From an uncultured bacterium (GTDB lineage Bacteria > Verrucomicrobiota > Verrucomicrobiia > Verrucomicrobiales > Akkermansiaceae), in assembly GCA_945831585.1 (NCBI GenBank), contig CAMACY010000014.1, forward strand, positions 1 through 34,060: DNA of 34,060 nt. Direction: 5' to 3'. The notes under the pieces were generated by a model, which was given only the letters and a program-made list of their open reading frames with translations, searched no databases and had not been told where the DNA came from. Shown here piece after piece: positions 1,885 to 7,201 of this stretch; position 1 is the first letter of the stretch; each line of letters starts with the position of its first letter. The position numbers were made by a program, and so were the translations under genes.

Positions 1885-3990
<2,106 letters not shown>

Positions 3991-4045
3991 AGTGATGTGT
4001 GGTTGGAATCTGCGGAGCGGCAAGAAGCGCTCTCACCTTTCTATT

Positions 4046-4062
4046 TGCAAATAGCGTGCCAA
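4046..4062 (-). promoter_or_regulatory. Sigma-54 promoter of glnN
   Basis: The minus strand reads TTGGCACGCTATTTGCA. This fits the -24/-12 consensus TGGCAC-N5-TTGC at every defined position, with GG at 4060-4059 and GC at 4048-4047. Transcription should start near 4035, giving a leader of about 45 nt before the ATG at 3990. RNA polymerase with RpoN needs an enhancer-binding activator; the repeats at 4141-4194 are candidate sites. Confidence 0.87.
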
Positions 4063-4140
4063 CTTTTTCAACACCTTGTTTAGAGATTGAAGAACAGGCA
4101 CTTATGACTGATAAGGCGAAAAAAACGCCCACACAAATTG

Positions 4141-4194
4141 TACATTTTTGTAAAACCAACAAAAAGCTTTTACATTTTTGTTGAACATTTTTGT
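4141..4194. repeat. Three ACAAAAATGT repeats, candidate activator sites for glnN
   Basis: On the plus strand, TACATTTTTGT occurs at 4141-4151 and 4171-4181, and AACATTTTTGT at 4184-4194. On the minus strand (the glnN sense) they read ACAAAAATGT(A/T). They lie about 80-135 bp upstream of the -24 element, the usual distance for sites bound by sigma-54 activators. The third copy runs into a perfect palindrome, TTTTGTACAAAA (4189-4200). The sequence does not resemble the NtrC site, so the cognate regulator is unknown. Confidence 0.6.
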
Positions 4195-4209
4195 ACAAAA
4201 CCGCCTGCC

Positions 4210-5175
4210 TTAGCAGGGCCACTCACCCCGTGCACGCACATCGCGCTCGATGGCGGCAAGAATCTCCGGAGGCGGGGGGAAATTGGCATCGTGGTGCGAG
4301 GAGCGGATCAACGGACCAGCGGCGACACCCGCAAAGCCGCGCGCCAGCGCGATGCCGCGCAGCTCCTCGAACTCGGCGGGGCGCAGGTAGCGGATGACGG
4401 GCAGGTGGCGGGGCGAGGGGCGCAGGTACTGCCCGAGCGTGAGGATACTGACCCCTTGCTCCAGCAGGTCGTCCATACTGCGCAGCAGCTCCTCGCGCTG
4501 CTCGCCCAGCCCGAGCATGAGACCGCTCTTGGTGACGACGAGCCCGGGTGCGAGCTCGCGGGCGCGGCGCAGCACGTCCAACGAGCGGCGGTAGCGGGCG
4601 CGGAAGCGCACGATGGGGGTCAGGCGCTCGACCGTCTCGAGGTTGTGCCCAAAGATGTGGGGGCGCGCGTCCATGACAGCGGCGAGCGCCTCGGCATTGC
4701 CGTTGAAGTCGGAGGTCAGCACCTCGATGATGCAGGAGGGGGCGGCGCGGCGCACGGCGCGGATGGTGGCGGCCACGTGCGCTGCGGCGCCATCGGGCAG
4801 GTCGTCGCGCGTGACCATGGTGATGACGCTGTGGCGCAGCTGCATGTCGGCCACGGCGGCGGCCACGCGCTCGGGTTCTCCGGGGTCGAGGGGGGCGGGC
4901 TTGGCGGTGCGGGTGGCGCAAAAGCCGCAGGCGCGCGTGCAGAGCTCGCCACCGAGCATGAAGGTGGCGCTGCCGTGGCTCCAGCATTCGCCGCGGTTGG
5001 GGCACTGCGCCTCCTCGCAGACGGTGACGAGCCGCTCGCCCGCCACCCGCTGCTGCACGCGGCGAAAGACGGCGCCGCCCGGCCCGCGCACCTTGAGCCA
5101 GGCGGGGAGGTGTTTTTTTTCCGGGGGCTCAGACGGAGCCCCCTCTGTGTTGTTATTCGGATGATTCGGAGGCAC
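4210..5175 (-). CDS. lipA: Lipoyl synthase (radical SAM)
   Basis: LipA inserts two sulfur atoms into protein-bound octanoyl groups to make the lipoyl cofactor of 2-oxoacid dehydrogenases and the glycine cleavage system. Both iron-sulfur motifs are present. The auxiliary cluster motif C-x4-C-x5-C is CEEAQCPNRGEC (Cys53, 58 and 64), and the radical-SAM motif C-x3-C-x2-C is CTRACGFC (Cys79, 83 and 86). A conserved R-S-S near residue 292 supplies the family's serine ligand, although the usual RSSY continues as RSSHH. A GTG at 5175 gives 321 residues, a normal length, and overlaps the end of the hexosaminidase gene by 23 bases. No ATG exists before the conserved region, so the start is uncertain. 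Extending to 5490 would run deep through the hexosaminidase gene and is rejected. Translation is probably coupled to the upstream gene. Confidence 0.92.
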   Translation of the reverse strand: MPPNHPNNNTEGAPSEPPEKKHLPAWLKVRGPGGAVFRRVQQRVAGERLVTVCEEAQCPNRGECWSHGSATFMLGGELCTRACGFCATRTAKPAPLDPGEPERVAAAVADMQLRHSVITMVTRDDLPDGAAAHVAATIRAVRRAAPSCIIEVLTSDFNGNAEALAAVMDARPHIFGHNLETVERLTPIVRFRARYRRSLDVLRRARELAPGLVVTKSGLMLGLGEQREELLRSMDDLLEQGVSILTLGQYLRPSPRHLPVIRYLRPAEFEELRGIALARGFAGVAAGPLIRSSHHDANFPPPPEILAAIERDVRARGEWPC

Positions 5176-7201
5176 GGAACAGGGGAACGAGGTTGATTTC
5201 CCAGGACTGAAAATCGCCGATGTAGGGCTGTTCGACCACGATGGTGTTGTCCCCCCGGCGCAGGGGCAGCAGGGTGGGTTCGTGCGCCCACCACACTTCT
5301 TCGTCATCCAGCGGGTTTTCGTTCGCCGGGGCAAACCAGGTGTCGCGCACGCAACGCCCCTGCCCCGCCAGGCGGTAGGTCTGCGGGTTCTTGAGCTCTT
5401 GCCCGTTGACCCAGATGCGCGTGCCGCAGGAGGACCACTCGCCGCGGGGTGCCACGCCCGACCAGCGGCGCGAGGAGCGGGCGGGAGCATCGAAACCGAT
5501 GAGGAAGGGCTGCATGCCCTCCTTGGGCGAGCGGATGGTGGTCTGCGCCCAGACGGTCACGCCCGGTTTCGTCTCGCGGAACACGCCGATGTTGGCGGTG
5601 GCGGGGCGGGTGCGCAGGTAGAGGCAGGCGCCGCGACGCGTCAGCCCGCTTCGCTTGTCCCAGGTGCCGGCGAGCACCTGCTGCCGCATGGCTTCGGCCT
5701 GCTCGGTGGGGACGGGTTGCGTCAGCGTCCACTCCACGCCGTATTCAGGATGGAAGGGAAAGTCCGTGCCGCGAAAGAGCGTGCGGCGCAGCTTGTCCAA
5801 CCGCTGCTCAAAGAGGCTGTAGGCGCGCCCGGCCGCCGTGTCATAGCGCGGCAGGGTGAGGGCGAGGGCATCGCCGTCCGGCGGAGCTCCGCACCACGAG
5901 CGCTCCGCCGCCGCGCAGAGCACGGGCCATACGCCGTTGTGGCGCTCGATTTTGCTCTTGTCGTCCACGCGAGTATCCGGCCAGATGCAGGCGATGAGCC
6001 CCAGGCGCAGCTCGTCCCCGCGCTCGACGCCGCAGGGGCGCATGAAGAAGTAGCGGCGCACGAGCAGCGAGGGCTCGAAGAGGTTGCTGTAGCCCATGGA
6101 GGAATCCACGGTGCGGCAATGAATACTCTCGGGGCGGAGCGAGCGCTCGGCAGAAGCGGCGCCCTCGGCCCAGCGCTGGGCGATGGAGTCCTCGCCTACG
6201 GGGAGGTCGTGCGGTCCGCCCCACTGCATGGGGCGGCGCCCCAGCGAGATGAGCTTGTCGCTCATGCGCTTCACGAAGGCCTTGGCGTTGGGGATACGCA
6301 CCTCATCGGCGCCCAAGTGGACAATGGGGCAGTCCTCGGCGGGGATTTCGGCGCAAAACTCCTCCAGCAGTTTTTCCAGAATCTCCTGCCCCTGCTCCGA
6401 GGCCATGTCGAAGCCAAAGGCTCGCTTGAAGTAGGCGCTGTGCCCGGGCATGTCGAGCTCGGGGATGATGCGGATGTGGCGCTTGCGGGCGTAGTCGATG
6501 AGCTCGCGGATATCCTTGTAGCTGTAGGTGCCCTGCAGGTCGCGCGTGCGGTGCTTGGGGTCGTTGAGCTCGGGGTAGGCGCGACACTCGACGCGCCAGC
6601 CGGGGTGGTCAGTCAGATGCCATTGGAAGGTGTTGAGCTTGAGCTGCGCCGCGAGGTCGAGCTGGCGCTTGAGGCTGTCGATGCTCTGAAAATTGCGCCC
6701 GCAGTCGTGCATGAAGCCGCGCAAGGCAAAGGCGGGGGCATCCTCGATGCGACCGTGGGGAAGCGAGCCGCCGACCGCCAGTTGACGCAGGGTTTGCAGA
6801 CCGTAGAAGAGCCCCGCAGGCGCGGCGGCGCGGATGTCGATGCCCGCTGACCCGATGCTCAGGCAATAGCCCTCGGCCGAGCGGATGGCATCGCCGCTCC
6901 ACAGGCTCTTGTCGAGCGTGAGGGTGCAGCGCAGGGTGCCGCTCCCCTTGCCCTCCGCCGCGCGCACCAGAGCTTTCCACGCCGTGCGCACCATGGGGTC
7001 CGACACGGCATCGCCCGCGAGCGCCCACCCCGAGGCAGCGGGCAGCTCCGTGCGCCCCTTGCCCCACTGCACCTGAGCGGGGAAAGGCAACAGCGCGGCC
7101 GGCGCCTGTTGTTCCGTTTCCGTCGGATGGGGCGAGACCCATTCCGCCGAAGCCCATGCGCCCGCCAACAGCGTCGCCATCATTAGCAAGTGTTTCAACA
7201 T
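5153..7201 (-). CDS. Secreted beta-N-acetylhexosaminidase, GH20
   Basis: A 682-residue glycoside hydrolase of family 20, which releases terminal GlcNAc or GalNAc from glycans such as mucin O-glycans. The N-terminus (MLKHLLMMATLLAGAWASA) is a signal peptide, so the enzyme works outside the cytoplasm. A GH20b-like N-terminal domain spans about 30-150. The (beta/alpha)8 catalytic domain begins near RGFMHDCGRNF and carries LNTFQWHLTDHPGWR and the catalytic D-E pair in HLGADEV (Asp299, Glu300), the substrate-assisted retaining mechanism of the family. The last 180 residues or so contain WANGQ-like binding-domain features (RIWVNGQEL, NTIVVEQPYIGDF), probably a beta-sandwich module. The start lies 12 bases after the recQ stop and the end overlaps lipA, so the three genes look co-transcribed. 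The pairing with housekeeping genes tells little about substrate. Confidence 0.92.
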   Translation of the reverse strand: MLKHLLMMATLLAGAWASAEWVSPHPTETEQQAPAALLPFPAQVQWGKGRTELPAASGWALAGDAVSDPMVRTAWKALVRAAEGKGSGTLRCTLTLDKSLWSGDAIRSAEGYCLSIGSAGIDIRAAAPAGLFYGLQTLRQLAVGGSLPHGRIEDAPAFALRGFMHDCGRNFQSIDSLKRQLDLAAQLKLNTFQWHLTDHPGWRVECRAYPELNDPKHRTRDLQGTYSYKDIRELIDYARKRHIRIIPELDMPGHSAYFKRAFGFDMASEQGQEILEKLLEEFCAEIPAEDCPIVHLGADEVRIPNAKAFVKRMSDKLISLGRRPMQWGGPHDLPVGEDSIAQRWAEGAASAERSLRPESIHCRTVDSSMGYSNLFEPSLLVRRYFFMRPCGVERGDELRLGLIACIWPDTRVDDKSKIERHNGVWPVLCAAAERSWCGAPPDGDALALTLPRYDTAAGRAYSLFEQRLDKLRRTLFRGTDFPFHPEYGVEWTLTQPVPTEQAEAMRQQVLAGTWDKRSGLTRRGACLYLRTRPATANIGVFRETKPGVTVWAQTTIRSPKEGMQPFLIGFDAPARSSRRWSGVAPRGEWSSCGTRIWVNGQELKNPQTYRLAGQGRCVRDTWFAPANENPLDDEEVWWAHEPTLLPLRRGDNTIVVEQPYIGDFQSWEINLVPLFRASESSE

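Follow-up and report, generated by a model that had tools for sequence, protein, structure and literature searches.

In the enterobacterial NtrC-glnAp2 system, a glutamine synthetase gene is controlled by sigma-54 and by upstream enhancer sites, and the same appears to hold for glnN at the locus described here; however, NtrC sites do not exceed chance level across the 19 homologous promoters compared here, the glutamine synthetase is of type III, a search of the genus for PII gave no hit, and the candidate activator, which we refer to as EBPa, has a GAF domain and lacks a receiver domain. The glnN product of cyanobacteria is also a type III glutamine synthetase (GSIII) and is regulated by nitrogen, but its regulator NtcA is a CRP-type protein acting on sigma-70 promoters, whereas here we find a sigma-54 promoter together with an AAA+ activator. 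The upstream site of NifA is TGT-N10-ACA, whereas the box found here is ACA-N4-TGT; sites of the NifA type are missing from 15 of 19 homologous promoters, including the one studied here. NifA (NCBIfam TIGR01817; PDB 9qq6) is otherwise like EBPa in its GAF, AAA+ and Fis HTH domains, its GAFTGA loop, its sigma-54 targets and its nitrogen theme, but EBPa homologues score below the curated nifA cut-off and leave the C-terminal part of the model unmatched, and the predicted targets of EBPa are GSIII and glutamate synthase.

Our main reading, to which we give a probability of about 0.8, is that glnN is transcribed from a sigma-54 promoter under a dedicated NifA-like activator, EBPa, which would act through three phased boxes when nitrogen is short and would sense the nitrogen status with its GAF domain. 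The promoter and the boxes, their conserved geometry, the presence of rpoN and EBPa, the gene order and the co-occurrence are observed; that EBPa occupies the boxes, which way the promoter responds and what is sensed are what we infer.

The window (the whole stretch of 34,060 bp that was analysed, contig C14) comes from a 1.92-Mb assembly that is 97% complete and has its close relatives within one genus, Akkermansia. Its glnN gene (1885..3990, minus strand) encodes a protein with both domains expected of a type III glutamine synthetase (Pfam GSIII_N, 258.6 bits; Gln-synt_C-ter, 135.6 bits), and the closest named relative of this gene is found in 'Akkermansia sp. RGIG5191' (82% identity). The start codon is likely the ATG at 3990 rather than the TTG at 4023, where the open frame begins. 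Upstream lies a lipA-like (lipoyl synthase) gene (4210..5490, minus strand; NCBIfam lipoyl synthase, 371.8 bits), and the intergenic control region between its end and glnN spans 4209-3991.

Within this region, TTGGCACGCTATTTGCA (4062-4046, minus strand) matches the -24/-12 consensus YTGGCACGN4TTGCW with no mismatch, confirming both the coordinates and the sequence of the exact consensus element reported in the preliminary description. It is the sole such site in the window, where the remaining three matches carry two mismatches each (the chance level), and the only zero-mismatch match to TTGGCAYGNNNTTTGCW in the whole genome is again the glnN promoter. Transcription is predicted to start near 4036, which together with the ATG at 3990 gives a leader of about 45 nt. 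A sigma-54-like site with one mismatch on another contig (C23) was rejected as a further target, as the boxes are absent there.

The three boxes are exact copies of ACAAAAATGT on the minus strand (box 1, 4194-4185; box 2, 4181-4172; box 3, 4151-4142), with 13 bp from box 1 to box 2 and 30 bp from box 2 to box 3. Their starts lie 132, 119 and 89 bp upstream, counted from the first T of the promoter element; the three repeats described earlier are thus all present and exact, while their distance, put at 80-150 bp, is corrected to these values. Genome-wide, the motif class ACAWWWWTGT (its own reverse complement, with 12 rows listed per strand) occurs at about 10-12 places, three of which are the glnN boxes within 53 bp, and the tandem pair ACAAAWWTGT-N2-6-ACAAAWWTGT occurs once in the genome. 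The palindrome TTTTGTACAAAA (4189..4200, minus strand), which had also been proposed as a functional element, is present as described but occurs in only one of the 19 homologous promoters, the window's included in that number, so we consider it incidental and rule it out as an operator.

We collected glnN genes across the genus and compared their upstream regions. In 19 orthologous glnN1 genes (the window's and 18 others), the sigma-54 element is kept and is preceded by three boxes, so both motifs, whose loss in close relatives would have spoken against the preliminary description, are retained. The spacing between boxes 1 and 2 is 13 bp in 19/19 promoters. Between boxes 2 and 3 it is 29-30 bp in 18/19, and only G013 differs, with 41 bp and thus an additional helical turn; since box triples were chosen by a best-score search across a range of spacings, this uniformity is a result and not an input. 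Base counts over the 19 promoters extend the box to TTTACA-N4-TGTAAA, with a near invariant ACA...TGT core and flanks that lengthen the dyad; as an inverted repeat, it has the form expected for a dimer. The spacing is kept even though the glnN proteins are down to about 63% identical and the spacers have diverged. The boxes seem to be confined to the genus, as glnN loci from further afield (79 in all) gave five sigma-54-like sites but no box.

Many genomes of the genus have a glnN1 gene without either motif, and most of these either lack EBPa or have EBPa together with a second, promoter-bearing gene, glnN2. The glnN1 genes without a sigma-54 promoter mostly have sigma-70-like promoters, many of them TTGACA-17-TAAAAT or near it (mean best sigma-70 score 9.1 vs 7.9 in shuffled sequences, and 7.6 in the sigma-54 glnN1 genes); the glnN1 genes of G004 and its lineage did not yield a clear sigma-70 site either. 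Several genomes of the G004 lineage (G017, G068, G070, G074 and G075) have one internal TAA in the glnN1 frame, possibly a sign of glnN1 decay where glnN2 holds the sigma-54 promoter. One genome (G080) contains two glnN1 copies (L278 and L288), one with the promoter and three boxes and the other without.

The gene rpoN, on which the promoter claim of the preliminary description had been made to depend, is found in 57 of 59 genus genomes, that of the window included, and its product has the AID, core-binding and DNA-binding domains. The window's genome encodes two sigma-54 activators, EBPa (contig C86) and EBPb (contig C57), and hence holds both rpoN and an AAA+ activator, as a sigma-54 system requires. 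EBPa, present in 38 of the 59 genomes, is made up of GAF, AAA+ and Fis-type HTH (HTH_8) domains, with NCBIfam nifA and PDB 9qq6 (Nif-specific regulator) as best matches; the two homologues scanned reach 481.8 and 455.4 bits with the nifA model (cut-off 528.85), and the match ends short of the model's C-terminal part. The GAF domain is complete in the homologues of G015 and G007 and partial in the EBPa of the window's genome, where contig C86 begins inside the gene so that the first ~90 residues are missing in the assembly; its GAFTGA motif is intact. In the G004 lineage (L264-L271, L154, L159), the sigma-54 contact loop of EBPa has GSFTGA instead of GAFTGA, as does that of EBPb where it was read (G004 and G036), and the altered loop may have co-evolved with the RpoN of the G004 lineage.

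The glnN gene could be assessed in 53 genomes. EBPa and a sigma-54 gln promoter are found together in 33 of them and are both missing in 17, the exceptions being two genomes with the promoter only (G008 and G024) and one with EBPa only (G079) (Fisher 9e-11, uncorrected and ignoring relatedness). On the RpoN protein tree, EBPa switches between present and absent about 10 times, and about five of seven supported independent contrasts are concordant with none opposed (sign test p = 0.06). In genomes without a linked glnN2 system the counts are 18/0/1/15 (both/EBPa only/promoter only/neither), with few supported contrasts and relatedness uncorrected. The contig of G024 ends inside gltB and that of G079 starts inside gltB, which makes missing neighbors plausible, so these exceptions may be assembly limits; in G008 (94% complete), the promoter is present and EBPa was not found. 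EBPa also goes together with gltB (both present in 37 of 59 genomes, both absent in 19, with 3 exceptions; about 7/8 independent pairs agree, p = 0.016), and this agreement is partly linkage where the two genes adjoin. The gene for the large glutamate synthase subunit is missing in 20 of the 59 genomes, nearly all of which are also without EBPa.

Linkage is seen in several relatives. In G015 the order is sigma-54 promoter-glnN1-gltB-EBPa-nadE, and glnN1 and gltB adjoin on the same strand in G013 and G028. In G007, G011 and G062 glnN2 is divergent from gltB and EBPa follows gltB (the coordinates in G034 are compatible with this order), while G004, G017 and their relatives have the same divergent pair but with EBPa at a distance of about 10-15 kb past gltB. 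Sigma-54 elements point in both directions in eleven of the regions between glnN2 and gltB, with at least one shared box between them, one or two in most of these loci; as read by eye, the box of G070 is slightly altered (ACGGAAATGT) and those of G062 have a 5-bp centre. The divergent nitrogen activator, distinct from one acting at NtrC sites, that had been predicted for this lineage thus has a candidate in EBPa, which co-occurs with the promoter and in relatives is encoded beside promoter-bearing genes.

EBPa lies apart from glnN and gltB in the window's own lineage, whose gltB genes have neither boxes nor a sigma-54 site (that of the window's genome has a weak sigma-70-like promoter only), so glnN is the sole target visible in its own genome. 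A wider regulon there was considered and rejected, as most of the other ACAWWWWTGT places are in or at the edge of coding frames or have no good sigma-54 element; autoregulation of EBPa in this lineage was likewise discarded, since in the relatives inspected the surroundings of EBPa show no sigma-54 site accompanied by boxes. In the window's genome and several others, the gene after EBPa is nadE-like, with an NAD synthase domain at its C-terminal end (e.g. L222:1289-2869; L211:11032-12366), which hints that nitrogen control and NAD synthesis may be connected.

No PII (GlnB/GlnK) homologue was found in any of the 59 genus genomes (13 of 14 controls were positive), so the genus seems to lack the usual relay from PII through NtrB to NtrC, in keeping with an activator that carries a sensory GAF domain itself. 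This absence is not a trait of the phylum, since the verrucomicrobial methanotroph SolV has both glnB and glnK (PMC3404531). In our model, EBPa would bind the three TTTACA-N4-TGTAAA boxes, which lie at fixed spacing 89-132 bp upstream, and reach the RNA polymerase-sigma-54 complex by DNA looping, through its GAFTGA loop. When nitrogen is short, EBPa would open the glnN promoter and more glutamine synthetase would be made for ammonium assimilation. As the search for PII in the genus was negative, the metabolic signal (2-oxoglutarate or glutamine) is probably sensed directly by the N-terminal GAF domain; Azotobacter NifA is the basis for suggesting that it would bind 2-oxoglutarate.

We considered whether the boxes could instead be bound by EBPb, a response-regulator, NtrC-like protein, as in the classical NtrC-glnA system. 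EBPb does have the receiver, AAA+ and Fis-type domains of such a sigma-54 activator, resembles NtrC/AtoC and scores 423.7 bits with NCBIfam ntrC (below the cut-off of 558.6), but almost every genome of the genus has it, even where glnN has neither promoter nor boxes, and its presence does not track the sigma-54 gln promoter. Its upstream neighbor looks, from the translated sequence alone, like argC and not like a gln or glt gene, and no PII was found that could feed an NtrB. Also, NtrC-like sites in the 19 promoters are no better than those in shuffled sequence (best site with 3.7 mismatches on average, against 3.9 after shuffling), in agreement with the earlier remark that the repeats are unlike the NtrC site; the best such site of the window promoter (2/10 mismatches) is not conserved. 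We therefore regard EBPb as an unlikely owner of the boxes.

We are equally doubtful that some unrelated dimeric repressor, or a different activator, binds the boxes, with the sigma-54 dependence real and EBPa acting elsewhere. The 89-132 bp distance and the one-turn indel fit an enhancer, both glnN and gltB have boxes in the loci that also contain EBPa, and EBPa co-occurs with the promoter; on the other hand, many regulators could use inverted repeats that are short and AT-rich, the window's own lineage shows no linkage of EBPa with glnN, and the recognition helix of EBPa differs between lineages (TTxRKLxYRI in the window's own, SPRMMNYKI and SPRVLHYKM in the glnN2/gltB lineages) while the boxes are alike. 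A chance resemblance without regulatory role is conceivable, since the intergenic region is AT-rich and the genome around it GC-rich (66% GC in the window), but it is contradicted by the spacing conserved in 19 genes with diverged spacers and by the window count itself (five matches to ACAAAAATGT with at most one mismatch vs 0.37 expected; five or more in 0/100 shuffles), and we consider it extremely improbable. Control by EBPa is the reading we prefer. A broader version of it, for which we see about even odds, is that PII-less Akkermansia control nitrogen through a one-component NifA-like activator that senses the nitrogen/carbon signal directly with its GAF domain and uses this new box code at glnN and, in relatives, at gltB, and that the lineages without glutamate synthase, having lost it, also lost the activator, with glnN mostly passing to sigma-70.

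The sigma-54 promoter, the NifA-like activator and GSIII are known kinds of parts, but the literature searched gave no description of their combination, of the box with its spacing or of the apparent lack of PII: no paper turned up that treats sigma-54 and glutamine synthetase together in Akkermansia, and a 2025 survey of sigma-54 regulons (PMC12316311) does not mention Akkermansia. We describe the putative control of glnN as a one-component sigma-54 circuit of NifA-like type whose dedicated role would be ammonium assimilation. The proposal gives Akkermansia, a much-studied gut genus, a specific candidate regulator, site and target for ammonium assimilation, and offers a testable case of PII-less nitrogen control in which a NifA-like activator would serve ammonium assimilation from a strictly spaced enhancer. 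The way in which the activator, glutamate synthase and the type of promoter vary together across the genus provides natural experiments in regulatory rewiring.
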